From positions 1 through 28,611 of the IMG/VR virus record IMGVR_UViG_3300024320_000029: 28,611 nucleotides of DNA; one strand, 5' to 3'. The DNA is from a virus. The translations under genes and the position numbers were made by a program. Within the stretch, counting starts at the first letter, position 1; each line of letters begins with the position of its first letter. Of the stretch, positions 1 to 27,987 are shown piece by piece. Below the pieces are notes generated by a model. The model did not search any database, was not told the origin of the DNA, and saw only the letters and a program-made list of their open reading frames with translations.

Positions 1-1879
1 CAATTTCTTCGATAGCTTTTACTACTTCTTTATCTACGTCTAAAGTACTAGACCTTTTAGTAAGAATTTCTTTATATCTTGCCATGTTTGCATCTTTAAA
101 TTCTTTATCATCTTTAAATGCAATTGCTCCTTCTTTAGCTTGGCTTCTTTGCATTATTTTATTTCCTGTAGTTTCAAGAGCTTCTGGGTTAACAACAAAT
201 GCAGCATCTGCAATTGATATTACTCTTGAAAGACTTCCAAGTCCGGAAGCGTCCCATCCAGAATATGATTTATTTGGTCCAATAGCAGTAGAACTAGAAC
301 TTCTTCCACCATCTGCATCAGTTGTTAAAGAATATTCGTGAGCTCCTTTTCTGCTCCATCGACTTCTTACATAAAATACCTTTTTACCTTTAGCAAGTGC
401 TAAAAGAGAGTTTTCTGGAAATTGAGTGTTATAGTGTCCAGAAGCATATGGATTTTCTTTTGCTTGTGTTGTATAATAAAATACGTAACCATCTTGTTTT
501 GGTCCATCTTTAGGATCGACATCTATTATTTGGTGGTCTTCTACTTTATCTAATGCTATTTTTGTTTGGCCATAAATTCCTTTTAAAAGCGTTTTAGGAC
601 TTTTTTTCATACTTAAAAGTCCTCTAAGTTTAGAACTTTTAAGTGCTTCATTAATTTCTGCAGATTCATTGTAACTTTCGTTAACGTAGTCTGTAAATTT
701 CGTGTGTACCATTTCTTTTATTTGGCTATATTTTTTGATTATTTTCTTAGACTCTTTATCTGAGCAATTTCTTATAAAATCTTCCATATCACTTCTGCTT
801 CCTGTGTCAATTTTATATTCTGTTGCTAATTTATTATATTGTTTATCGCTAAGATGTCTTACAAAATCTTCTAACTCAGCAGTAGAACCTTCATCTATTT
901 TATCACCGTTAGGTTTTTTACCAGTCTCAATAGCATAAGAAACTACTTCCTTAGTATTAAATGCAGGTTTTGGAGCTCTACCTCCGTTATATTCTTTATC
1001 CCATTCTGCAATAGATTTATCATCTTCTAAATCAAATTCACCGTTCTTATAGGCTTCAATTGCTTTCATAGTAAACATTGAGTCCCAATTTTTTGGCGCT
1101 CTAGCTTCATTAACAGATTCATACATATTAGAAGTTGCCTCGTCTGGTAAATCTTCCCAATCTTTTTCAACATGTTCTATAGCATCATCTGAATCAGAAA
1201 AAGCCTGTAATAACCATTCTTCTCTTTGGTCATCATCTGCTTTATCCCAATGTTTTTTTGTAATTTCTTTTCTACCTTCATTGATTTCAGATTCCATAAC
1301 TGCAAGTTCTAAATCTTTAATTGCAGCTTTAAGTTCTTTGTCGCTATATTCCATAGGCTCAGTATCACCTGCAAATTGATCAGTAACTTTGAATTGATGT
1401 GTGTTTCCAACTTTTCCAATATATTCATAGTCAGCTTGCCAAACATTTAAACCTAAATCTAATAAGACATAGTCTTTTCCGACTACTAAATCAGATTCCT
1501 TTTTAACAAATTCTCCAATATCACTTGGTTTCACCCAATTAGGATATATTTCCTTTCCTTTCCATCTTGAAGCTTCATTAACGGCCTCTAAGCTGCTTAA
1601 GATTTTATTTCCATAAGAAGAAAGAGTTACACTGTCTTCTTCAATCTTAAAAAATCTAGAGTTTCTTTTTGTCCATTTACTTGGACTTTTAGAATGACTT
1701 GATACTATCTCGTTAAACTCAGAAAGGGTCAATTTCTTGTCCCTTAATGCTTCAATAATAGTATTTCTAATGCTTGCTTTTTGTCTTACGTTTTTTTCTG
1801 GATAGTTTTCTGTATATCTTCTTTTAAGAACTATCTTACCCTCATCTAAAGACTCTAGGTACTTTTCGAAATCTTGCAT
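1..1879 (-). CDS. Multi-segment protein with repeated xxNE/(G,A) sites, C-terminus outside window
   Basis: An open frame runs from an ATG at 1879 to the left edge with no stop: 626 complete codons, C-terminus missing. I do not recognise the family. The N-terminus (MQDFEKYLESLDEGK) looks like a T4 capsid-targeting leader, with L11-D12-E13 before G14. Similar sites recur inside: AVNE102/A, EINE201/G, SVNE258/A and EINE411/A. They separate segments of roughly 55-150 residues that look unrelated to each other. Residues 327-384 are two tandem 29-residue helical repeats, both starting K-I-D-x-G. The last visible part (from about residue 430) is richer in aromatic residues and glycine and may be a globular domain. 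The other sites follow the weaker xNE pattern. The gene is last in the leftward series, 46 nt after the nuclease-like gene. The reading frame is certain; virion packaging and cleavage are inference. Confidence 0.85.
   Translation of the reverse strand, partial: MQDFEKYLESLDEGKIVLKRRYTENYPEKNVRQKASIRNTIIEALRDKKLTLSEFNEIVSSHSKSPSKWTKRNSRFFKIEEDSVTLSSYGNKILSSLEAVNEASRWKGKEIYPNWVKPSDIGEFVKKESDLVVGKDYVLLDLGLNVWQADYEYIGKVGNTHQFKVTDQFAGDTEPMEYSDKELKAAIKDLELAVMESEINEGRKEITKKHWDKADDDQREEWLLQAFSDSDDAIEHVEKDWEDLPDEATSNMYESVNEARAPKNWDSMFTMKAIEAYKNGEFDLEDDKSIAEWDKEYNGGRAPKPAFNTKEVVSYAIETGKKPNGDKIDEGSTAELEDFVRHLSDKQYNKLATEYKIDTGSRSDMEDFIRNCSDKESKKIIKKYSQIKEMVHTKFTDYVNESYNESAEINEALKSSKLRGLLSMKKSPKTLLKGIYGQTKIALDKVEDHQIIDVDPKDGPKQDGYVFYYTTQAKENPYASGHYNTQFPENSLLALAKGKKVFYVRSRWSRKGAHEYSLTTDADGGRSSSSTAIGPNKSYSGWDASGLGSLSRVISIADAAFVVNPEALETTGNKIMQRSQAKEGAIAFKDDKEFKDANMARYKEILTKRSSTLDVDKEVVKAIEEI
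728..901 (-). repeat. Two tandem 29-aa repeats inside the left-edge gene
   Basis: Residues 327-355 and 356-384 of the left-edge protein align without gaps: KIDEGSTAELEDFVRHLSDK against KIDTGSRSDMEDFIRNCSDK, followed by more divergent lysine-rich ends that both finish in Y. At DNA level the copies have diverged, so this is an old duplication. The pattern suggests a short helix-turn-helix-like unit. Function unknown. Confidence 0.8.
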
Positions 1880-1925
1880 TTTTATATTATTTTTTTTATC
1901 TGTTTCTTTATATATCTTTTTAAAA

Positions 1926-2942
1926 TTAATTTGCTTTGACCTCTACTTTTATAGTTCCTGCAGTCATTTGAGCAATTCTCATAGAACCTACTCTTCCTGG
2001 AAGACTATCATAAAAATAAAATTTTCCAAATTTATGTTTATTTCCTATAGAGTGACACAATACAAATTTTTCTTTAATGTTTCCGAAAGCTTCGGCAAGT
2101 TCTTTTTCTATAGTTTTATATGATTTAATTCTAGTTCTAGTCTGGTGTTTTAATAAAATTTTAAGTTCTGACAGTATTTTCTTATCAGATAAGCTACCAA
2201 TTACTTGACCTCCTACTTTAGAAATTACTAAATCTCCATGTAATTCTTTGATATCAAAGGTAAGTGGTACTTGAATTTCAACAGGGTGTAAATCTTTAAC
2301 TACTTTAATAAATTGGGTTCCTTCTCCTCTTTCCATTTTATCAGATATTTCTGCGCTTTTATCACCAGTAAATTCCGGTTGAATATCTTTAAGAGCGTTC
2401 CATAGGGCTCTTAAATCTCTTTTTGCAGAGTCAATAATACCTCTATGGTTTGCTGCTGTTTTCCATCCATATAGCCATCCTTCTTTACTTTTTTTTGCTT
2501 CTTTACACTCGCATTTTTCTCCTAGCTCATTTCCATTTTTGTCGGTAAGACTTAAATCTATGTTTTGGCTTCCTCCTCCTATTGTGCAATTTTCAATTAA
2601 ATATGCTAAAAGAACCTCTCCTCTTCCTATTGCAGTTGTATCTCCACCAACATTAAATAATTTTGTGGCTTTTGCAGCATTATTAGAAGTTGTGAGCTTA
2701 TCGTTTAACTCGTTAAACAATTGTTGTGAAAACTTTTCTGCAAAAATAGGTTCACCGAAAGGAGCTTCACCTCCAAAAAACCTGTTATTGCATTGTTCAA
2801 ATAGTTTTCTTTTATCTTTGGGATTTGAAGACTGTGCAAGCGCCAATAATCTAGAATCGGATGCTGCTTCATATATCATTTCTTCTCCATAGGAATCTCT
2901 TAGCCTATTTAATTCTGATTCAAATTGCGTTCTAATACTCAT
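1926..2942 (-). CDS. PD-(D/E)xK nuclease-like protein with leader
   Basis: A 338-aa protein if started at the ATG at 2942, which sits one base after the stop of the upstream gene (TAA-A-ATG). An upstream in-frame ATG at 2963 would overlap that gene by 20 nt; I prefer the internal start because the same TAA-N-ATG junction occurs at 13997. Using the 338-aa numbering, the middle shows the order expected of a PD-(D/E)xK nuclease core: G-R-G-E109 opening a hydrophobic helix, then N-I-D129 on a strand, then E145-C-K147. The N-terminal 25 residues are helical and charged and end I23-Y24-E25 before A26, matching the T4 gp21 cleavage pattern, so the protein may be packaged and trimmed. The C-terminal half is basic. 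Substrate unknown. The fold call rests on motif spacing only; a structural protein with a degenerate nuclease fold is possible. Confidence 0.6.
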   Translation of the reverse strand: MSIRTQFESELNRLRDSYGEEMIYEAASDSRLLALAQSSNPKDKRKLFEQCNNRFFGGEAPFGEPIFAEKFSQQLFNELNDKLTTSNNAAKATKLFNVGGDTTAIGRGEVLLAYLIENCTIGGGSQNIDLSLTDKNGNELGEKCECKEAKKSKEGWLYGWKTAANHRGIIDSAKRDLRALWNALKDIQPEFTGDKSAEISDKMERGEGTQFIKVVKDLHPVEIQVPLTFDIKELHGDLVISKVGGQVIGSLSDKKILSELKILLKHQTRTRIKSYKTIEKELAEAFGNIKEKFVLCHSIGNKHKFGKFYFYDSLPGRVGSMRIAQMTAGTIKVEVKAN

Positions 2943-2943
2943 T

Positions 2944-4773
2944 TTATTTTGTTTTAAATTCATTAAATGTTAACACTGTTTCTTTCTGTTGAACTTTGCT
3001 TAGTTCTAATTGTAATTCATAGAACATAGAATGAATTGAAGGTGGTGTTAACTGCTTAAACTCCTCTTCATTCTCGTTTATTATTGCTTCTCTAACTTTA
3101 GTAGCACTAACATTTTCTTCGTCTCTTTGTATTTCAAAAAGACTAAATTCTTCTAGAACATTTAATTGCTCTCTATATTTTGCATTGTCAACTTGATATC
3201 CGTAACCTTTCATTCTGTCAGTTCCGGAACCCCAAAGAACTGGTTCGTATTTAGGTCTAAGTTGGTTAAATATCTTATCTATTCCTGCAGTTTCTACAAC
3301 TATAACATCTTCTATTTTTTGATCGGCTTTTGCCAATTCTAAGAGTTGCATTTGAGTTTCAGTTGTAAAAGGTCTTCTTTGAGCATCGTCTTTTTTCTTA
3401 GTTTTTGACTTTACTAAAACGACAACAGTGTTTAAACCATTTTGCTCATATAAATTTTCTAATACTTTAGTATGTCCTAATGTAAATGGTTGAAATCTTC
3501 CAACAAACATATTTACTTTTTTAGCACCTCTTTCAATATAATCTACTTTAAGTCCTTCGTTTATAGGACTTTTCTGTGATTTTAAAGTATCATTGATTTT
3601 AAAAGTTTGGAAGTCCATTATTTCAGACTCTTCTACTTCACCAAATACTTTTGATTTTATCGACTTAACTATGTTATTTAAAGATTCTAATATTTCTCCA
3701 GTTAAAAGAGAAGTTTCTTTATCTCTTAATTTTCTAAAAGTTCCTAAAGTTATCTTTAATAATTCAGCAACTTGTTTTGAATCGTTTATATTTTTTATAG
3801 TCTCTTGATTATTTAAAAATATAGGGTTTAATTCAAATTCTTTTTCTTTTGCGAAATCTGCGCTTTTAAAATCTATTCCTAAAAATGAATCTCTATGTTC
3901 TTTTAAAAATGAATTAAATCCAGCAGACATAATCTCTAAATATCTGTCGTCTGTTTTTTCACCTTCCAACTTAATTTTACCAAAATCAAATTTGTTAAAA
4001 TATTCAATAAGTCTTAAAACTGTTATTTGATATGCATCTGAAGAACTTCTTTCTTCTTTTCTAGATTCTTTTAAAGGACTTTGAATCTTAAAGTTTTTTA
4101 CAGTGCTTCCATCTTGAAAAGTTACAATTAAACCATCAATGTCCTTAGATAAATCATTGTGTAATTTAGAATTGTGAATAGACTCATTAAATACTTTAAA
4201 TATTCTGTGAGTAAAACTGAAGTCACTAAAGAACTCCTCTGCTTCATCTATATTTAAAGCTAGTATGTTAATTAGTTTTTCGACTTGATATTCAGCAAGT
4301 TTACCATTGAATATAATAGTGGGTTCATCTACTTCTAAAATAGTTGCCCACTTGTTTAATATCTTAGGGTCTTTAATTACCTTCTTAACTCTACCGTCCT
4401 CTTGTAATACTTGGATATGAGTTAATATAAGATTGTTTTTTGGAACATTATCATACTCTACAGATACAGTCTTATTTGAAGTCATGTAGTCAAAACCAAA
4501 TTTCCAATCATGTGGAAGCTGTTCAACTTTTTCAGGAAGCAATGCGTTAAAATGTTTAATTGCTTTTTCGTAATATGAAACTATTGTTCGATCTATTTTA
4601 TTAATAGGTTCATTTTTACCAGATTTAAAAAACTCCATGACACCATTATTTCTATGGGTATAGAAACTGCTTGCTTGAATCTTTTCAGTAACGATGCATT
4701 TCTGCGATAGAAGTTGTTTTACGTCTTCTAATTCGTTAGCTTCAAAATAATCTTTTAAGTCTTTTAGTGCCAT
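2944..4773 (-). CDS. RNA ligase (Rnl2-like) - NMN adenylyltransferase fusion
   Basis: A 609-aa two-domain protein. The N-terminal part carries nucleotidyltransferase-superfamily signatures like T4 RNA ligase 2: motif I EKIQASSF with K31 as the expected adenylated lysine (T4 Rnl2 has EKIHGTNF), a region around W90-KFGFDYM resembling motif III, D-G-L-I-V (213-217) as motif IV and N-F-K-I-Q (227-231) near motif V. The usual motif I glycine is alanine (A34), so activity is not assured. Residues 420-565 form a cytidylyltransferase-like NMNAT: GRFQPFTLGH (425-434) is the (H/T)xGH nucleotide-binding motif and VSATKVR (555-561) the downstream phosphate-binding motif. NMNAT makes NAD+ from NMN and ATP. 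Between the domains lies I404-N405-E406/G407, a prohead-protease-like site. The gene ends one base before the next start. The NMNAT call is strong, the ligase call moderate, and cleavage is inference. Confidence 0.8.
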   Translation of the reverse strand: MALKDLKDYFEANELEDVKQLLSQKCIVTEKIQASSFYTHRNNGVMEFFKSGKNEPINKIDRTIVSYYEKAIKHFNALLPEKVEQLPHDWKFGFDYMTSNKTVSVEYDNVPKNNLILTHIQVLQEDGRVKKVIKDPKILNKWATILEVDEPTIIFNGKLAEYQVEKLINILALNIDEAEEFFSDFSFTHRIFKVFNESIHNSKLHNDLSKDIDGLIVTFQDGSTVKNFKIQSPLKESRKEERSSSDAYQITVLRLIEYFNKFDFGKIKLEGEKTDDRYLEIMSAGFNSFLKEHRDSFLGIDFKSADFAKEKEFELNPIFLNNQETIKNINDSKQVAELLKITLGTFRKLRDKETSLLTGEILESLNNIVKSIKSKVFGEVEESEIMDFQTFKINDTLKSQKSPINEGLKVDYIERGAKKVNMFVGRFQPFTLGHTKVLENLYEQNGLNTVVVLVKSKTKKKDDAQRRPFTTETQMQLLELAKADQKIEDVIVVETAGIDKIFNQLRPKYEPVLWGSGTDRMKGYGYQVDNAKYREQLNVLEEFSLFEIQRDEENVSATKVREAIINENEEEFKQLTPPSIHSMFYELQLELSKVQQKETVLTFNEFKTK

Positions 4774-4806
4774 TTTATTTTTTTATAGTTAATAAATTTA
4801 ATTTGT

Positions 4807-5463
4807 TTATACTCCATTCATTATGTCTTCTAGAAGTTTTGCAAAACCTTTCGAAAACCCTAATCTACGGTTTGATAATCCTATTGTAGAGTAATTAGAC
4901 CCATGGTCATAATCAAAAGCTATTCCACCATCATTACTATTCCATTCTTCAAATACAAAAAAGAGCAAATACAATTCTTGCATTATTTTATCTTTTATTC
5001 TTTCATCAATTCCACTTCCGATAGTTACTCCTATTATATAACTCGTACTTCCATTGTTGAAATTTACTCTTGGTCGAATATCTCCACTAACAGTCGATCT
5101 CATTGTTCCAGACCAACCAGCTGATGCTGGAGTACTAGACTGCTCAACTTCATCTCCTTTATATTTCTTAATAACTTTTGCTATTTCTCCTGCTAATAAT
5201 TTTGAGCTGTTAGGGTTGAATATTTCAAAGTCTGCTCTTTTTGGAGAATATTGTCTAGCAAAATCTCCCATGTGTTTATCATATCGAATATTGCTAGGCT
5301 TCATTTTTTCAAGTTTTGCGACTATTTTGTCATACCATCTTTCTCCTGCTGCTGCCTGGTGTTTAGAGTATTCTAAAGATGCTTCTATTTTAGCAGCTAT
5401 TCCTTTTTTACCAAATTGAATTCCTTCGTTTATAAATTCGTTGAATGATTCATGTAATTTCAT
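4807..5463 (-). CDS. Unknown 218-aa protein with capsid-targeting-like leader
   Basis: I do not recognise this 218-aa protein. Its start codon overlaps the stop of the ligase-like gene by one base (TAATG), so the two are translationally coupled. The first 13 residues, MKLHESFNEFINE followed by G14, closely resemble the leader of T4 internal proteins (IPI and IPIII begin MKTYQEFIAEA), with I11-N12-E13 as the expected gp21 site. The body is mixed: a basic helical part (residues 15-60), then alternating strand-like segments (about 125-150) and a C-terminal helix. No signal peptide, membrane segment, catalytic motif or cysteine cluster is visible. Context between two ligase-type genes suggests a shared role, but none can be assigned. 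Confidence 0.8.
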   Translation of the reverse strand: MKLHESFNEFINEGIQFGKKGIAAKIEASLEYSKHQAAAGERWYDKIVAKLEKMKPSNIRYDKHMGDFARQYSPKRADFEIFNPNSSKLLAGEIAKVIKKYKGDEVEQSSTPASAGWSGTMRSTVSGDIRPRVNFNNGSTSYIIGVTIGSGIDERIKDKIMQELYLLFFVFEEWNSNDGGIAFDYDHGSNYSTIGLSNRRLGFSKGFAKLLEDIMNGV

Positions 5464-6728
5464 TATCTTCCGTATTTTATTATCCCCATTAACTGATTTA
5501 TTGCAGCAAATGTTCCTGTTAATTTCATAGTCTTTCCTTTGTACTTAAATACAATTCCCTCTGTTGGAACTATACTTTCAATACCTCCAATAGTTTCCAG
5601 TCTATTAAGTTCACTTTCTATTTTTTGGACCTGCGTAAGGTCTCCATTTAGTTTTATATCTTTAGCAGCTTTTCTAATCTTATTATGTAGATTTTCTTTT
5701 TCTAGATCAGGGTTTGCTGCTACAAAATTACTTGCATTTTTTAAAACATCAGCGCCTAACTCTAAAAACAAATTCTCAAATGGCAATATATTCTGCTTGT
5801 ATTTTTTATGTCTATCTTTATCAAAGTCTTTAATTTTAGATAAAACATCGGGTTCTACCATTTTTTTGATAGCTACCATATTAAGAGTTTGTTTGTCTTT
5901 ATATGCCCATCTTAAAAATAAACCTTCTTTTATTTTTGAATCTAAATCTTTAAATTCTTTTTCTATTTCTTTACTCCACCATGCCTCATGATATTCTTTT
6001 ACTTCATCACCATCTTTTAAACCAAACTCATCTCTTAATTTGTCTAACTTTTTAAAATAATAGTCTCTTCTAGCCTCAAAGTCAATATCTTTTTGAAGTT
6101 TAATAATTTGAGGAGGTATGATTGTAAAAGTCTTTTGCACATCTAATTCGACACTTTTAATAATTTTAGCCAATTTTCCACCAGCTTTGCCGTCTTCTGA
6201 TATAATCTTTCCAGTTTCATCTACTTCTACCATTCCATGAAATTGAATTAAATCTCTATCATAATTAATTACATTAGGATTTTTAGTGTAAATGATTTCC
6301 ATATTCAAGAAGTTTGTTCCTTCTTTAAAATCTGAAGTATCTTTAAGGTTAGATAGTGAAGCATCTAAATCTTTAGCTGCTAAAACAAAAGTTTCTTCTA
6401 CTAAAGAAGATGCATGTCCTTTAAACATATTAATAATGCCAGCCAAATCCATTGGACTTATTAAAGTTCCCTTGTTTCTAGCAAAAAGCACTTTACCATT
6501 TTTAACAGTTGCAAATAAATTCTGACCGTCTGTTTTTTCAGTAGGTCCTTCTTCAAATGTCAAACTGCCTTGTAAACCATCTTCTACAATTCCTTTGAAA
6601 TCTTTAAATGTCAAATCATGAAAATCAAACGGATGAGCCATATGCCCAGCAGCACCACCTTCTAAAATAAGCTGATTTTCTGCAGTTTGATATTTTTCAA
6701 TTAAGAATTCTGTATAGGTCTTAAGCAT
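5463..6728 (-). CDS. KTDG-type nucleotidyltransferase/RNA-ligase-like protein with leader
   Basis: A 421-aa member of the covalent nucleotidyltransferase (ligase) superfamily by motif. T-E-K65-T-D-G-Q-N is motif I with K65 as the likely AMP-accepting lysine, F-A-R84-N-K follows as the conserved arginine region, L-N-M-E144 fits motif III, E390-G-I-V-F fits motif IV and K-Y-K-G-K-T-M-K (395-402) fits motif V. The N-terminus (MLKTYTEFLIEK through I21-L22-E23/G24) resembles a T4 capsid-targeting leader. The next residues (GGAAGHMAHPFD) resemble the opening of a widespread phage family that I recall only as ligase-like. The long insert (about 200-360) is charged and helical. A terminator and a candidate promoter lie just upstream. 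Whether RNA or DNA is joined cannot be told. The superfamily call is firm, the substrate unknown. Confidence 0.78.
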   Translation of the reverse strand: MLKTYTEFLIEKYQTAENQLILEGGAAGHMAHPFDFHDLTFKDFKGIVEDGLQGSLTFEEGPTEKTDGQNLFATVKNGKVLFARNKGTLISPMDLAGIINMFKGHASSLVEETFVLAAKDLDASLSNLKDTSDFKEGTNFLNMEIIYTKNPNVINYDRDLIQFHGMVEVDETGKIISEDGKAGGKLAKIIKSVELDVQKTFTIIPPQIIKLQKDIDFEARRDYYFKKLDKLRDEFGLKDGDEVKEYHEAWWSKEIEKEFKDLDSKIKEGLFLRWAYKDKQTLNMVAIKKMVEPDVLSKIKDFDKDRHKKYKQNILPFENLFLELGADVLKNASNFVAANPDLEKENLHNKIRKAAKDIKLNGDLTQVQKIESELNRLETIGGIESIVPTEGIVFKYKGKTMKLTGTFAAINQLMGIIKYGR

Positions 6729-6807: not shown

Positions 6808-8232
6808 TTAACCTACTGAAGACTGCAACATTCCAATTGCTGCACCGTAATCTCCATCGGCTTTTTTCAGCATTCCTTCTGCTGCTTCTTTTGCTTTTTC
6901 TTCGTCGTATTTATCACCGAACGCTTTTTTGTAAATAGTGGTTGCCATTTCAATAAAGTCTTCGTCTGATTTAACTTCTGCTTCGTCAAGATTTGTAGAT
7001 TCACTTAATGAATTTTTTAAGCCGCAATGTACACATTCTACTGTTCCATCTGATTCTATTTGCTTATATAAATGTCCTTTTCTATTAGAACATTTTGGCT
7101 CGTCTGATTCAAAAGTTTTACTTTCGTAAATTTCCATAACACCGTCTCTAGTGACTCTTATTTCAGCTCCTTCAAATTGTGCATTGAATGCATTTAACAT
7201 TGATTGAGCAGTTGAATCATCTTTTAACATTGTTGATATGTAAAGAGCACATCCTTCTACAATTGCTTGGCCTCCCCAACCAGCTGCTGCTGAAATATCT
7301 GAAACGTGATTAAATAATATTTCTTTAATTCTTCCAGAACTAATTTTAGCATGATATCCTCCAAGACCTGGTAATTTAATTTCAATACCTTTAATATTAG
7401 CGCCTTTTATTGCTTTTAAGACTGCTGGTTTTTCAGTGTGGAAGTTAGCATCAGTCATTGCTTCTCCGCAAATATATTTTACACATCCTAGCATTCCTTC
7501 TTTTCCAAGTTGACCTAAATCTACTAACTTTTTAGTAAAAAGTCTATTCAGTTGAGTAACTACTTTTTTAGCAGCTCTTTTTCTCTCTACTTGAATTGCT
7601 TCGTTAATTTCTACCTCTTCAGTAATTTCTGATTCAAATTTATGGCCTACAATTATACAATTTGCAACTCCAGGAAAGTATTCTCCTTGGTCTGTTTGTA
7701 TTCTTCCGCTTGAACTTGATTTGTGAGGTTCAGTAAAACTTTTGACCGTAATTGGGTCTCCTCTAAAGTCTTTAGTCTTATATGGTAATTTAACAATCTT
7801 TCCAGTTTTTTCATCCATTAATTGAGCAGCTTCTTCTACTTTATAAGTTTCGCCATCAACTTCGAATTCTTCTTCTCCGTCTTCTTTAGCTTTTTTAACA
7901 GCAGCTCCAAATTTGTTACCTTCTACTTGATATTTCTTGCCATCAACTTCGAATTCTTCTTCTCCGTCTTCTTTAGCTTTTTTAACAGCAGCTCCAAATT
8001 TGTTACCTTCTGTTTCTAAATCTTCGTTATTATTAGATAATGTTGTAAAAAACTCGGTTCTTTTTTCTTCATCTAGTTCAGCAACTGAAGATACGTTATA
8101 TTTTGATAATAGTTCAGTAAATCTCTGTGCTTCAACTTGTCTATTTACAGTAGCAGCCCATTTCTCTTTATCTTCAATAATTCTTTTTCTAGTTTGAGAA
8201 AAACTAGCAAATGTTTCTAATTTTCTTTCCAT
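6808..8232 (-). CDS. 474-aa repeat- and zinc-finger-containing protein with internal xxNE/xxDE sites
   Basis: I do not recognise the whole protein. Domains in order: a helical charged N-terminus (1-70); two identical-type repeats, 75-103 and 104-132, each starting EGNKFGAAVKKAKEDGEEEF and ending in a short strand (EVDGKKY); a beta segment (140-200); a central domain (212-375) with G-G-Y-H and A-A-G-W-G-G stretches; a putative zinc-binding C381-x5-H387-x12-C400-x2-C403; and a helical C-terminus (418-474). Sites resembling prohead protease cleavage, I209-N-E211/A and L415-D-E417/A, separate the central and C-terminal parts. There is no obvious N-terminal leader. The repeat unit resembles motifs I associate with marine phage structural proteins, from memory. 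It follows uvsW by 41 nt and ends in a terminator. A head-internal or structural role is inference. Confidence 0.8.
   Translation of the reverse strand: MERKLETFASFSQTRKRIIEDKEKWAATVNRQVEAQRFTELLSKYNVSSVAELDEEKRTEFFTTLSNNNEDLETEGNKFGAAVKKAKEDGEEEFEVDGKKYQVEGNKFGAAVKKAKEDGEEEFEVDGETYKVEEAAQLMDEKTGKIVKLPYKTKDFRGDPITVKSFTEPHKSSSSGRIQTDQGEYFPGVANCIIVGHKFESEITEEVEINEAIQVERKRAAKKVVTQLNRLFTKKLVDLGQLGKEGMLGCVKYICGEAMTDANFHTEKPAVLKAIKGANIKGIEIKLPGLGGYHAKISSGRIKEILFNHVSDISAAAGWGGQAIVEGCALYISTMLKDDSTAQSMLNAFNAQFEGAEIRVTRDGVMEIYESKTFESDEPKCSNRKGHLYKQIESDGTVECVHCGLKNSLSESTNLDEAEVKSDEDFIEMATTIYKKAFGDKYDEEKAKEAAEGMLKKADGDYGAAIGMLQSSVG
7852..8011 (-). repeat. Exact 73-bp tandem repeat with 87-bp period
   Basis: Positions 7852-7924 and 7939-8011 are identical over 73 bp, separated by 14 bp, giving an 87-bp (29-codon) period inside the 474-aa gene. 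Perfect identity, including third positions, points to recent duplication or gene conversion. Copy number could vary between relatives. Confidence 0.95.
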
Positions 8233-8273
8233 TTTTACTTATTTTTATTTCAGTTTTATTATATATCAATAAT

Positions 8274-13998: not shown

Positions 13999-14367
13999 TT
14001 AAAATCTTTTTCCAATAGTAGCACCTAGAGCGGTACCTACAAGTCTTGAAGTTAATAAATCATAGAGAACACCTTTGTCAATACCTAAAACTTTAGCAAT
14101 CATTTTACCCATGGACTTTCCTAAAGCAAAACCAGTAAGACCACCAACAATAGAACCGAAGAGACCTTCATTTGTCATTTCTTCATTAAACCTTTCTAAA
14201 TCTAAATCTCCGTTTTCATCACGATATTCATTTAAAAAAGAATCAACTGCCTCATCAACTTTAGCTTCTAATTCAGGCGTCCATTCTTGTTGAAGTCCTT
14301 CATTAAGAAGTTGTATTTCTTTTTCAGTTACCTGATTTTCTTCCAAGTATTTTACAAACGTTTTCAT
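13999..14367 (-). CDS. Glycine-zipper protein with capsid-targeting-like leader
   Basis: A 122-aa protein. The N-terminus (MKTFVKYLEENQ... L21-N22-E23/G24) is the closest match in the window to the T4 internal-protein leader. Next comes an acidic helical segment (24-66), then a glycine-zipper half (69-122) with G-S-I-V-G-G-L-T-G-F-A-L-G-K and G-T-A-L-G-A-T-I-G repeats, typical of chains that insert in or pack against membranes. M-T-N-E68/G is a second, weaker cleavage-like site that would free exactly the glycine-rich part. The gene lies between the tail-tube-like gene and the RuvC-like gene. A packaged, membrane-active protein delivered at infection is inference; a core/scaffold component is the main alternative. 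Confidence 0.78.
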   Translation of the reverse strand: MKTFVKYLEENQVTEKEIQLLNEGLQQEWTPELEAKVDEAVDSFLNEYRDENGDLDLERFNEEMTNEGLFGSIVGGLTGFALGKSMGKMIAKVLGIDKGVLYDLLTSRLVGTALGATIGKRF

Positions 14368-24444: not shown

Positions 24445-27400
24445 TTATATAGTCTTATTAAGAGTTACAGCTTTGATATTATTAAGATTAAATCCTTTAG
24501 GTTTGTACTTAGCAAAAACTTCAACATCGAAAGAAAATTGGTTTTCATTCGAATCAAATAAATCTATACCAATTGTTTTTGAATACGTCAAGTTATTTAT
24601 TTGAGAAGTATTTAAACCACCAATTCTACCACTTGAAGTATCAACTCCTCCTGCAGATGTAGTACCAAAATAATCTGTCATTCTATATTGAAAGACGACA
24701 TCTAAAGTTAGATTAGGAGCTTTAGCAGTTGTAGAATTTACTTGCTTCTCATCTAATTTACCTATTTTTCTTTTACCGAATTTATTATCACCATCTACTT
24801 CTAAACTTCCAATTCTAGTTGGAGATACAAAAAGATATGCACCGCACGATTTACCTCCTAGAAGATATTGGTCATTGTCACTAAAAGACATTTTCATACT
24901 TCTTTGGTATGATGAGTCATTATCATATCTATATGCGTTCTGTAAATTAGAGAATGCTTCACTTTCTTGTAAAGTCGCTAATTGACTCATATTAGTATTT
25001 CCTGGAGCGAAACCTGGAGTTCCTATTTGAGGATGGTCTATATGAACATAAAGACTATCATCATAATCCCCGGATGTTAGTGACCCAAGTGTTACAACTC
25101 CAGTTGAACCGTCCCATATAAAGTCAGAACTTGGTGCTCCTACAGAACCAGCTCCTGCAATACCAAAGTATTCGAATCTATTTGAGTTATTAGTTAAAGT
25201 AAGGTCTGTTCCATTAAGATAATCTAAAGGAGCAACTGCATAAAGTGGGTTTTCACCAGAAACATCCATATATCTGCTATAAATAAATTGACCTTTTCTC
25301 TGTGCTGATTGAAAAGGCGATGCATTATTGAAAATTTCAGCAGCTGCCTCGGCACTTGACATATTTTGATATTGTATTGGCACTAAGTCATATTTAGCCT
25401 CTACTGTATAATAAGTATCATTTTCAACTCTTGATGCTAGTGTTGGTGATGGTGTAACAGCAAAATCATTTGTTCCCATTTCAAAATCAACTTCAGTTCC
25501 AGTAGAAGAAGAATGATAAACTGCATCGGATCTTTTACCAATAACTCTAGCAACTAATTCTAAATCTGTCGCTTTTGTATTTTCTAATAAAAGTTTAAAA
25601 GTCTTAGTAACAATATGACCTTTTTTAATATTTAAGTCTGCAACCTCATCAACATAATATCCAGCAAATACTTTTGCTGTTTGGTTAGCTTCTATCTGAG
25701 TAGTAGCTCCTTCTTCATCAACTAAAGTAACTGTTAATTCTCCTTCTGCATTTTCTATAACTCCTCTAAGAGTTTCTATTTCTTTTTGAAGGTCTATTAA
25801 TTTATCAAATAATGTTATTGGTGTTTGCTCTCCAGATAAGAATCCAGAATTAATATCTTTAGCACCATGCGCAAAGTATTTTTCGTTAGCAATAACAGAT
25901 TGTGCAATATGCTCATAAAAACCTTTAGATTCTAATTCATCTAATAATTTTACAAATGTAGTTTCTTTAGAATTTTCTTCAATTAAATTAACTATATTTG
26001 TAGTATCTAAAAGACCTTCTGGAAAATCAATTTTAGTAATTTCACTCCAATCAGATTCTAAAGGGTTAGAAGGATATCCTGCTTCAGAAATAGATTTTAT
26101 TCTTATTTCTACACTTTCTCCTAAATTAATTGGAATATCTAATTGGTTAAAGTTTATTTCTTGTCCATCTTCAACTGATTCAGAAACCCAAACATATTTA
26201 CCTGTTACAGAATCTCTAAGTCTTTTTCTAACAGGGGTTTCATATTGATTCCAATTAGAAAAACTTGCTGTTGTAGTTTGTCCATTTGTTTCAAAAGGAA
26301 TTTGCTCTATGTTAGAAGTTTTTCCGCTAGATGAAACATATCTATATTGAATCTTAAATTGAACTATTTCTTGTGGTAAAGTGTCTTCGTTATCTTTTGC
26401 TTCTGGAATAGCCCAAAAACCTCTAACTCTATATTTTGCACTGATATCAGCTATACCTTGGTCAGTACTAATACTTTGAATTTGATTTACTATTGAAGTA
26501 TAAAGTTTTGCTTCTCCACTTCTTTTTTCAATTAGAGAGTTAAGATTATTTTTATCTTTATTTTGCTCTATTTTAGAAGTGTATTTCTTAGTTGCTATCT
26601 CGGATCTTTTATTTGAAATAGTATCATCTAATTTTTTAATTGATTCTAAAACAGTAACTTTATCACTTGATAGTTTTTTGATAGAATCGAATGCATCATT
26701 AGATGTTAAGTGAGTATTTACTTGAACTACTGAAAAATTACCTGGTAATAATTCAACTGGATCTGGAACAATTCCTACAGTTGCAGGTGGAATGAAATCT
26801 TCTTTAAGTGATTTAATAAATTGTCCGAAATCAGCTACATTATTTCTATAATATGCTGCTAAAGTTGAAGTACTTCCATCAACCTCTTCAATTGTTAATT
26901 CGTTTGAATAGAACCCAACACCAGGTGACCAGTTTTCTGCTATAATTTTAGAAGAAGGGTCAATTGCTTTAAAGAACACAATTTGTCTTTCATTAAAACC
27001 TACATTAATACTTAGGCTTACTGAATCTTCTAAATTTTTATAAATTTTTAAAACATCAGCACCAATAGATACAGAGTCAAATCCTTCTATCAGCTTTAAC
27101 TCCAGTTGACTTGTACCTGAATAAATGTTAGTTATCTCATACCTTGTGCTATTGTTACCAGAATTAACCAGAAGATTATCTCCTATACTTAAAAGCTCGG
27201 TATCTTTTAGTGACTTTTCCCCATCATTATATGTTAATTTATTAAGTGTAAATAGTTTTACGGTTCTTGTAACATCTTCTCCATCAACTTGAAAAGTTCT
27301 AGATACATTTTCTACATTGATAACATCAAACCCACCATAATATTGAGTAGATTTAAAAGGTAAATCTCTTACTTGCTCATCAATTGTTATATTTACACCA

Positions 27401-27987
27401 TCTGAAATAATATCACCAAGAGCAGTTTCATAATCTAACTCTTCTAAATTTTTGTAATTGTCATCAAAATAAGAAGGTGCAAAATCATCTTCAGCTGGAA
27501 ATATAAATCTTTTAACTAAAACCCTTTCAGTATCAGTGTCAATTTGACCACTAACATTAAATTTTACAGTTAATAAAGGGTTAAGAAAATCTTCAAAAAA
27601 GTCATTATCTGTAGTTTCAAAAGAAGTTGGTAAATCAATAACCTCTAAATCATTTGCAGGTGTCTTTAGTTTTTTAGTGATAACTCTTTGAAAGCTGCCA
27701 TCAGGTAATTGAACTGTTGCATTTGAAGTACCAACACCACTAAGCGCTTTGATATTGTTTTCAAGTCTTTTCATTTCTTTATTTAAGAAACCAAAAGAAG
27801 GTATTTGATAAGTCTTTATTGTAGTATTACCATCCTCGTCTGGAGTACCAAATAAATCTATGGAAACTGTTATTGATTCATCTTGAGTTGTTACTGCTTG
27901 ATTAATTCTTTCAAAAGTTTCTAAAGCATTTGTGTTCATTTGAGTGAACTGTCTAATAACGCTATTTAATGAGTTTTGTGTGTCCAT
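24445..27987 (-). CDS. 1180-aa tail/baseplate protein with coiled coil and FN3-like domain
   Basis: A virion-type protein. In order: an N-terminal helical/attachment part (1-90), beta-rich domains (100-420), a coiled coil (about 428-505, with heptads such as I-K-K-L-D-D-T-I-S-N-K), a fibronectin-III-like sandwich (about 513-655, with F-K-I-Q-Y-R-Y and V-E-I-R-I-K-S-I-S-E-A-G-Y-P-S, the usual F/G-strand pattern), a second helical linker (660-740) and further beta-rich C-terminal parts. FN3-like domains on phage tail proteins often bind host surfaces. The gene starts 6 nt after the partial structural gene upstream. There is no frameshift or truncation. The specific T4 equivalent is unknown. Confidence 0.72.
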   Translation of the reverse strand: MDTQNSLNSVIRQFTQMNTNALETFERINQAVTTQDESITVSIDLFGTPDEDGNTTIKTYQIPSFGFLNKEMKRLENNIKALSGVGTSNATVQLPDGSFQRVITKKLKTPANDLEVIDLPTSFETTDNDFFEDFLNPLLTVKFNVSGQIDTDTERVLVKRFIFPAEDDFAPSYFDDNYKNLEELDYETALGDIISDGVNITIDEQVRDLPFKSTQYYGGFDVINVENVSRTFQVDGEDVTRTVKLFTLNKLTYNDGEKSLKDTELLSIGDNLLVNSGNNSTRYEITNIYSGTSQLELKLIEGFDSVSIGADVLKIYKNLEDSVSLSINVGFNERQIVFFKAIDPSSKIIAENWSPGVGFYSNELTIEEVDGSTSTLAAYYRNNVADFGQFIKSLKEDFIPPATVGIVPDPVELLPGNFSVVQVNTHLTSNDAFDSIKKLSSDKVTVLESIKKLDDTISNKRSEIATKKYTSKIEQNKDKNNLNSLIEKRSGEAKLYTSIVNQIQSISTDQGIADISAKYRVRGFWAIPEAKDNEDTLPQEIVQFKIQYRYVSSSGKTSNIEQIPFETNGQTTTASFSNWNQYETPVRKRLRDSVTGKYVWVSESVEDGQEINFNQLDIPINLGESVEIRIKSISEAGYPSNPLESDWSEITKIDFPEGLLDTTNIVNLIEENSKETTFVKLLDELESKGFYEHIAQSVIANEKYFAHGAKDINSGFLSGEQTPITLFDKLIDLQKEIETLRGVIENAEGELTVTLVDEEGATTQIEANQTAKVFAGYYVDEVADLNIKKGHIVTKTFKLLLENTKATDLELVARVIGKRSDAVYHSSSTGTEVDFEMGTNDFAVTPSPTLASRVENDTYYTVEAKYDLVPIQYQNMSSAEAAAEIFNNASPFQSAQRKGQFIYSRYMDVSGENPLYAVAPLDYLNGTDLTLTNNSNRFEYFGIAGAGSVGAPSSDFIWDGSTGVVTLGSLTSGDYDDSLYVHIDHPQIGTPGFAPGNTNMSQLATLQESEAFSNLQNAYRYDNDSSYQRSMKMSFSDNDQYLLGGKSCGAYLFVSPTRIGSLEVDGDNKFGKRKIGKLDEKQVNSTTAKAPNLTLDVVFQYRMTDYFGTTSAGGVDTSSGRIGGLNTSQINNLTYSKTIGIDLFDSNENQFSFDVEVFAKYKPKGFNLNNIKAVTLNKTI

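Follow-up and report, generated by a model that had tools for sequence, protein, structure and literature searches.

The virus record IMGVR_UViG_3300024320_000029 (IMG/VR) is a fragment of a phage genome; it was analyzed over its whole 28,611 bases, here called the window. It begins with a block of genes (g1–g6, Table 1) encoding RNA-ligase-like, NMNAT-like and other proteins. The question raised by this locus is why such products carry (I/L)xE sites before G or A, several of them close to a short N-terminal leader. The original prediction was that they are packaged in the phage head and cut there by a prohead protease; the six (I/L)xE sites on which it was built were all present at their residues. 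As judged from their sequences, packaging and cleavage of the block proteins are very likely.

The main evidence is the leader. Related loci were found via g3, and the best 80 of 98 qualifying stretches were used (codes beginning with L denote loci, those beginning with G denote records). The strict T4 capsid-targeting sequence (CTS) pattern, [FY]xx[FYH][ILV]xE at the protein start, was counted in 1736 proteins, non-redundant at 90% identity, from 13 related records. It started 83 proteins against 3.5 ± 1.8 after shuffling (maximum of 9 in 300 shuffles), and its mirror had no matches in the same proteins. By position, 79 matches began in the first ten residues, and 0 to 13 were found in each later ten-residue bin up to residue 200. 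Applied to T4 as a control, the pattern matched 2 of 248 proteins, exactly the internal proteins (IP) IPII and IPIII. Leader genes numbered 2–11 per related record, MKHIKLFEQFINE being a typical leader. The 81 leader proteins that entered the family scans (two, crossing a stretch border, were left out) aligned with a mean column identity of 5%, and the majority consensus, MKxxKxFExFxNE, was confined to the leader. P2 of the leader was N in 48 of 83 proteins, and an [ILVM]xE[GAS] site lay within about 44 residues in 50 of them. A looser leader pattern was also in excess in four genomes: 8, 16, 11, and 5 proteins versus 1.9, 2.0, 1.1, and 1.4 (shuffled maxima of 7, 8, 5, and 6). Gene calls were mechanical and, for the window and some relatives, began g5 too late, so that the leader counts for g5 are underestimates there. 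In LR756500, 10 of 300 open reading frames (ORFs) had the leader (0.9 expected, maximum of 5; 250 of 462 kb covered). The original prediction had expected the leader to be enriched over shuffled proteins; this held 24-fold for the full T4-type pattern, while the bare site alone gave a weak signal. By its pattern, position and conservation, the leader is a genuine tag.

The strict pattern fits g4, g5 and a 122-residue protein encoded further along the window, a point absent from the original prediction. In the 122-residue protein, MKTFVKYLEE stands in the register of T4 IPIII, with g5 shifted by one and g4 by three residues. For IPIII, the available text of PMC9026906 assigns targeting mainly to residues 4 and 7 and processing to residues 8 and 10. 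A site was found at residues 8–40 in 23 of 25 non-redundant homologues of the 122-residue protein (5.0 expected). Separately, the family of a 1180-residue tail-type gene (window 24445–27987) has such sites at residues 8–40 in 10 of 13 called members (1.7 expected); the window copy has no stricter-form site there.

Predicted cut sites are concentrated in the block. Within their first 30 residues, four of the five proteins g1–g5 had [IL]xE[GA], where shuffling gave 0.46 and 0 of 5000 shuffles reached four. Among the 15 window proteins outside g1–g6, one had it (0.46 expected, P = 0.38), and among all 21 window proteins five did (0.94 expected, P = 0.002). Over whole proteins, [ILVM]xE[GAS] occurred 10 times in g1 (2.5 in shuffled sequences, 0 of 1000), six times in g3 (2.1, P = 0.02), and six times in g6 (2.8, P = 0.06). 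The proteins g2, g4, and g5, taken whole, were not enriched (2 sites each, P = 0.2–0.4). The bare-tripeptide test by itself was rejected as too loose, and since the bare site is weak genome-wide, the case is carried by the full leader and its conservation.

The g3 protein combines a ligase-like and an NMNAT-like part, and the site at their junction, [ILV]xE[GA], was conserved in all 31 homologues that remained of 77 after redundancy removal at 90%, with N, L, T, or M at P2 and G or A at P1' in every one. In the structural model, the sole stretch of at least three residues with a predicted local distance difference test score (pLDDT) below 50 was 379–406, ending at P1. The best Foldseek match of the N-terminal part was T4 Rnl2 (E = 1.2e-8), with no ligase match in Pfam. 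The C-terminal part matched PF01467 (E = 4.7e-14) and TIGR00125 (above cut-off), and every NMNAT-specific NCBIfam model scored below its own cut-off. Its fold superimposed on archaeal NMNAT with Z = 14.1 and a root-mean-square deviation (rmsd) of 2.7 over 153, the PPAT and NadD folds reaching Z = 12–13; it is NMNAT-like, and its substrate may be that of NMNAT or of a related adenylyltransferase. In more distant phages, NMNAT and a g5-like ligase are joined in other arrangements, again with sites between the parts: Mel-JY01 has the order NMNAT-IIAE/GG-ligase, and LR756508 encodes a ParB-like part (below cut-off), NMNAT, an unassigned part, and ligase in one chain of 914 residues with LDE/S-type sites between the parts. 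The g3 protein ends in a leader-like tail, VLTFNEFKTK (window 2947–2976), in which T602, F603, and F606 were invariant in 34 aligned sequences; this tail is possibly a capsid-targeting signal. C-terminal leaders were also considered as a genome-wide class (33 versus 8.8, maximum of 21 in 300 shuffles), but 17 of 37 proteins of a slightly wider pattern were g3 homologues, and for this reason no general claim is made.

In the g5 protein, the leader residues F8 and E11 and the site residues E23 and G24 were invariant in 30 aligned sequences, as were K65, T66, D67, and G68 of EKTDGQN, which we take to be ligase motif I of the KxDG type. The model (pLDDT of 85.6) showed a short helix at residues 5–11 and pLDDT below 50 at 9–22 and 24–28, around E23/G24. 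RNA and tRNA ligases were the best Foldseek matches (best E = 2.7e-3, none below 0.001). Superposition on a nick-sealing RNA ligase gave Z = 9.8 and an rmsd of 4.0 over 187 residues, and the first 39 rows were all ligases. A sequence search of the PDB returned 0 matches, NCBIfam gave none, and Pfam had no ligase match. The homologue in LR756500 keeps the leader MKFLKSYEEFLNE and ILE/GG. The two ligase-like enzymes and the NMNAT named as cargo in the original prediction are supported by the folds of g5 and g3. Its nuclease-like label for g2 found no support in Pfam, PHROGs, or NCBIfam, nor did it for three homologues. Some g2 homologues have LLE/A, LVE/G, or LNE/G near the start; those of L001 and L061 have no such site in the first 60 residues. 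Pfam and PHROGs gave no confident family for g1, g2, g4, g5, or g6. The g4 protein had a weak tape-measure PHROG match (E = 3e-4), and its homologue G019_007 belongs to the 83 leader proteins.

Sites of the same type mark domain borders in the longest block proteins. Among 107 families, the five with the largest [ILVM]xE[GAS] excess were g1 (211 observed, 73 expected), g6 (193, 66), a protease-scaffold protein of the relatives (117, 38), a family of 393 residues near gp4 (73, 20), and the capsid protein (57, 20), and in four of them the mirror motif was at expectation. Over all families, [ILVM]NE[GAS] reached 3.3 times expectation (EN 1.33, ND 0.62, NK 0.68), xE[GAS] 1.52, xD[GAS] 1.35, and the mirror 1.13. 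Of the homology-block edges, 396 of 1154 (158.5 expected) and 360 of 1262 (158.0 expected) were at most 6 residues away from a site, an excess of 2.3- to 2.5-fold, rising to 3.2- to 3.5-fold for NE-type sites. Since homologous proteins enter these counts and those of site density, each as one event, the events are not independent. The control residues D, K, Q, and T gave 0.34–0.98 of expectation and [DE]xL[GAS] gave 0.65 to 1.08. The family of 393 residues (G003 99991–101163) is perhaps another processed head protein.

Four modules occur both alone behind a leader and inside polyproteins. The GTRGQFGKIDKKG module, for example, stands alone in G002, G020, and L005, within g6 in G001, G003, and G004, and within g1 in L061. 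Residues 103–196 of the window g1 form a module flanked by two sites, which the close relative L001 lacks, and a G003 gene fuses two leader proteins, the second retaining its own leader. Internal leader-like motifs were in excess in g1 (12 versus 3.0, maximum of 9) and not in g6 (3 versus 3.4). Neither g1 nor g6 of the window found a tblastn match (E = 1e-5) among 50,697 phage records. Site counts and block edges identify g1 and g6 as multi-site polyproteins with domains swapped at the predicted sites.

The gp21-like protease that such cleavage would need was searched for with the Pfam S77 family. It was found in 15 of 20 related records and, among the 15 longest (at least 81 kb), in 14; none was seen in the window's own fragment of 28.6 kb, which leaves that part of the original prediction standing for the relatives. 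Of the records of at least 67 kb, 15 of 17 encoded it, the exceptions being G014 (88 kb) and G016 (79 kb); the shorter records G018 (21 kb), G019 (52 kb), and G020 (65 kb) had no S77 match. We infer that the phage of the window encodes such an enzyme as well. In the relatives read (G001–G004), the protease is one long protein with a site-rich C-terminal part, followed by a gp23-like capsid protein. Its location suggests that this part is a fused scaffold; the T4 core proteins found no sequence match in the relatives, so core roles are assigned by position. The capsid precursor starts with three close sites (e.g., INE/A, IEE/A, and ITE/S) in G001, G003, and G004; the G002 gene call begins further in, so the three-site start can be read in three relatives only. 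A small protein encoded just before the protease has a T4-pattern leader in three of the four (G002, G003, and G004; not G001), followed by A in two. The sites in the capsid precursor and this leader thus make the likely specificity of the protease readable within the lineage, and it resembles that of the block sites. A representative protease gene is L111:5645–7543; in G003, a stretch inside the corresponding fusion resembles, by eye, a module of g6 in other relatives.

An upstream motif links the leader genes to head genes. The 8-mer GATATATA preceded 21 of 52 head and packaging genes and 0 of 53 replication genes of the relatives and was 34 times denser between genes than inside them. Because it was picked on those same late genes, its association with leader genes is the one separate test: it preceded 31 of 85 leader genes, which include a few small proteins beside the protease, versus 208 of 1689 others (odds ratio of 4.1, p = 3e-8). 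The T4 late promoter TATAAATA was tried and found before 0 of 52 late genes of the relatives. In 35 cases (G001–G011, G019, G020, and the window), the end of GATATATA lay exactly 4 nucleotides ahead of the predicted ATG, a spacing suggestive of leaderless late mRNAs; before the gene of the 122-residue protein, AATATATA ends at this distance. The window has four copies on the coding strand (minus 24416, 12608, 8267, and 1916), one of them 29 nucleotides before a gene for 1580 residues. We infer that GATATATA is the late promoter of the lineage.

As to what the leader proteins are, at least 42 of 81 matched nothing in Pfam at E = 0.001. The remaining matches included ATP-grasp enzymes (4), acetyltransferases (2), a Nudix enzyme (1), and one 2H phosphoesterase, which also resembled Acb1, an inhibitor of the cyclic-oligonucleotide-based anti-phage signaling system (CBASS), below cut-off. 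One polynucleotide-kinase and one RNA-ligase PHROG were matched, together with single PHROGs of doubtful meaning (e.g., portal and tape-measure). A KptA-like match and an MPTase-PolyVal match (19.9 versus 27.5 bits) were below cut-off, and PADLOC gave a few weak matches only.

Table 1. Predicted features of the g1–g6 block and of the 122-residue protein gene in the window
Feature	Position	Strand	Description
g1	2..1879	-	cargo polyprotein, 626 residues seen, runs off the window; leader ends LDE13/G
g1, further sites	residues 43, 102, 196, 201, 254, 258, 330, 401, 411	-	between small domains
GATATATA before g1	1909..1916	-	late-promoter-like, 29 nucleotides upstream
g2	1926..2942 (second Met; ORF opens 2963)	-	338 residues, leader site IYE25/A
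g3	2944..4773	-	Rnl2-like RNA ligase domain, linker 379–406, INE406/G, NMNAT domain ~417–595, tail LTFNEFKTK
E406 codon of g3	3556..3558	-	predicted P1 residue between ligase and NMNAT
g4	4807..5463	-	218 residues, T4-type leader MKLHESFNEFINE13/G
g5	5463..6728	-	421 residues, RNA-ligase-like, T4-type leader, second site ILE23/GG
g6	6808..8232	-	474-residue polyprotein, sites at 134, 211, 326, 370, 411, 417
GATATATA before g6	8260..8267	-	late-promoter-like, 27 nucleotides upstream; may serve g6–g2
122-residue protein	13999..14367	-	Gly-zipper-like, T4-type leader MKTFVKYLEE and LNE23/G

The phage of the window is T4-like: a UvsW-type helicase, a RuvC-like gene, and a gene of the family matched by T4 gp32 in the relatives are present, the predicted genes lie on the minus strand, and the large genes are presumably of tail type. 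The lineage is little known and consists of uncultivated phages, and it appears to mark many of its proteins with such leaders. The T4 gene rnlB is located between head gene 24 and uvsW; in the window, the ligase genes adjoin uvsW. Among 1495 capsid relatives of the L123 capsid protein in the phage collection, LR756500 (51%) and Prevotella Lak phages (32–33%) ranked top, and a Shine–Dalgarno-like match of at least 4 was found at 289 of 908 called genes of four relatives; with such capsid relatives and so few Shine–Dalgarno-like matches, Bacteroidota hosts would fit.

Several findings weigh against packaging and cleavage. In the window, g1 and g2 fall outside the strict T4 pattern, having the cut site only, and g3 has no N-terminal leader. 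The bare N-terminal site is weakly enriched genome-wide in four relatives (10, 18, 13, and 11 genes versus 8.3, 7.6, 6.2, and 6.2 shuffled), and only 35 of 83 leaders have G, A, or S directly after E, with K in 15. The mirror motif is equally high in the protease-scaffold protein (106 versus 37.8), and block edges have a 1.7- to 1.8-fold excess of the mirror tetrapeptide. In LR756500, the g3 junction is TFE/A, outside the motif; the homologues in LR756501 and LR756502, which consist of the ligase alone, lack a leader; in Lak-A1, leaders were found in 0 of 39 or 44 ORFs, depending on the genetic code (50 of 542 kb). The protease gene was not found in the fragment that forms the window, and searches of the four relatives with T4 gp22, gp67, gp68, Alt, and the IPs gave no match in sequence. 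One window copy of GATATATA stands 182 nucleotides before the gp32-like gene, which misfits a purely late role. We know of no virion proteomics for these phages.

Some of these findings would also suit other explanations. The leaders might be uncut docking peptides for a common partner, such as a replication or transcription hub, and the xE/G sites acidic flexible linkers. The shared core (an aromatic residue, hydrophobic residues, and a final E) could be a binding peptide, and 48 of 83 leaders have neither G, A, nor S after the E, most commonly K instead, which would agree with this explanation. Yet G, A, or S follows the leader E twice as frequently as it follows the other E residues of these proteins (21%, n = 1238), P1' of the g3 linker is G or A without exception, the leaders of T4 IPII and IPIII fit the identical pattern, the same leader stands beside the protease gene in three of four relatives with similar sites in the capsid precursor, and the upstream motif is common to leader and head genes; we consider docking improbable. 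Chance matches to a loose tripeptide hardly deserve credence. The bare-site N-terminal count of G001 is indeed near the shuffled value, but the leader is conserved in unrelated proteins and peaks at the N-terminus, block edges are in excess at sites, and four of five block proteins carry the site where 0.46 are expected.

A narrower alternative is that only g1, g6, and the small leader proteins are packaged, as a core that is degraded, while the ligases and NMNAT stay cytoplasmic. The density of sites, highest in g1 and g6 as in the protease-scaffold fusion, would agree with it, as would the leaderless g3 and the leaderless ligase-only homologues of LR756501 and LR756502. The full conservation of F8, E11, E23, and G24 in g5, the invariant g3 site, the leader MKFLKSYEEFLNE kept by g5 of the distant LR756500, and the placement of GATATATA before the run g6–g2 speak against it, and we regard it as unlikely, though somewhat less so than docking. 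Targeting and cleavage along the following lines are the best explanation, and we hold them to be highly probable.

According to this explanation, g6–g1 would be late-expressed genes of head cargo. In the manner of the T4 capsid-targeting sequence, the leaders (in g3, perhaps the C-terminal tail) would draw the proteins into the prohead core. A gp21-like prohead protease cutting after (I/L/V)xE would then remove the leaders, split the ligase–NMNAT protein into two enzymes, and break up the g1 and g6 polyproteins so that their small domains come apart. Once freed, the proteins would remain inside the head, pass into the next host together with the DNA, and do their work ahead of phage gene expression. 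There, the RNA ligases might reseal tRNAs or other RNAs cut by host defenses, the NMNAT might support nicotinamide adenine dinucleotide (NAD+), and the small domains might act on other host targets. Late synthesis of RNA ligases is easiest to understand if the enzymes are meant for the next infection; NMNAT alone needs nicotinamide mononucleotide, so that its role in NAD may depend on host or phage partners. The delivery of working RNA-repair and NAD enzymes is plausible and rather favored by us, with less assurance than targeting and cleavage. A broader proposal, for which we see about equal grounds for and against, is a plug-in cargo system. In it, small effector domains from a shared pool would travel singly, each behind a leader, or as parts of polyproteins and even of the protease-scaffold protein, with prohead-protease sites at their borders. 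The head would cut its own mixed payload (RNA ligases, NMNAT, Nudix, 2H/anti-CBASS-like, ATP-grasp, and acetyltransferase proteins), which would be delivered before expression and blunt tRNA-cutting and NAD-depleting defenses.

If this is true, the few internal proteins of T4 are the small end of a wider delivery system, and a sequence rule becomes available for listing candidate virion-delivered effectors from genomes. Whether phages bring RNA-repair and NAD enzymes along or make them after defenses fire would become testable. A further use of the leaders and sites could be as ready tags that direct proteins into phage heads.

Directing proteins into the head by CTS, as in T4, and injecting multidomain proteins, as with the polyvalent proteins, are already known. 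In the available text of the open-licence PubMed Central (PMC) literature, we found no tag set this large, no case of RNA ligase or NMNAT carried in the capsid, and no cargo polyproteins exchanging domains at prohead-protease sites. Phage NAD+ salvage (NadV, NadM, NadR) and RNA-repair ligases involve the same enzyme types, and the text available on them does not mention a packaged RNA ligase or NMNAT. In phiKZ and SPN3US, many head proteins are cut after E by a phage protease (PMC9026906, available text); phiKZ differs in its motif, S/A-x-E, and belongs to another lineage. The polyvalent and P1 Dar proteins are likewise multidomain and thought to be packaged and injected, and a reporter carrying the first 30 residues of DarB goes to the P1 capsid (PMC5512222 and PMC9024508, available text). 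Unlike them, the proteins described here have gp21-type sites at their junctions, and some of the domains also occur alone behind a leader. The T4 ADP-ribosyltransferase Alt is a head-packaged enzyme that gp21 processes also at the C-terminus (PMC9026906, available text); the enzymes here are others, and in the four relatives Alt itself had no phmmer match (E = 1e-3). T4 IPI–III, which are cut by gp21, share the leader pattern, with an S77-family protease in the relatives here, and the available text of PMC9026906 suggests that CTS may let T4-like phages package various proteins. Unlike the T4 IPs, the leader genes here number 2–11 per record, include enzymes and polyproteins, and have sites also between domains.

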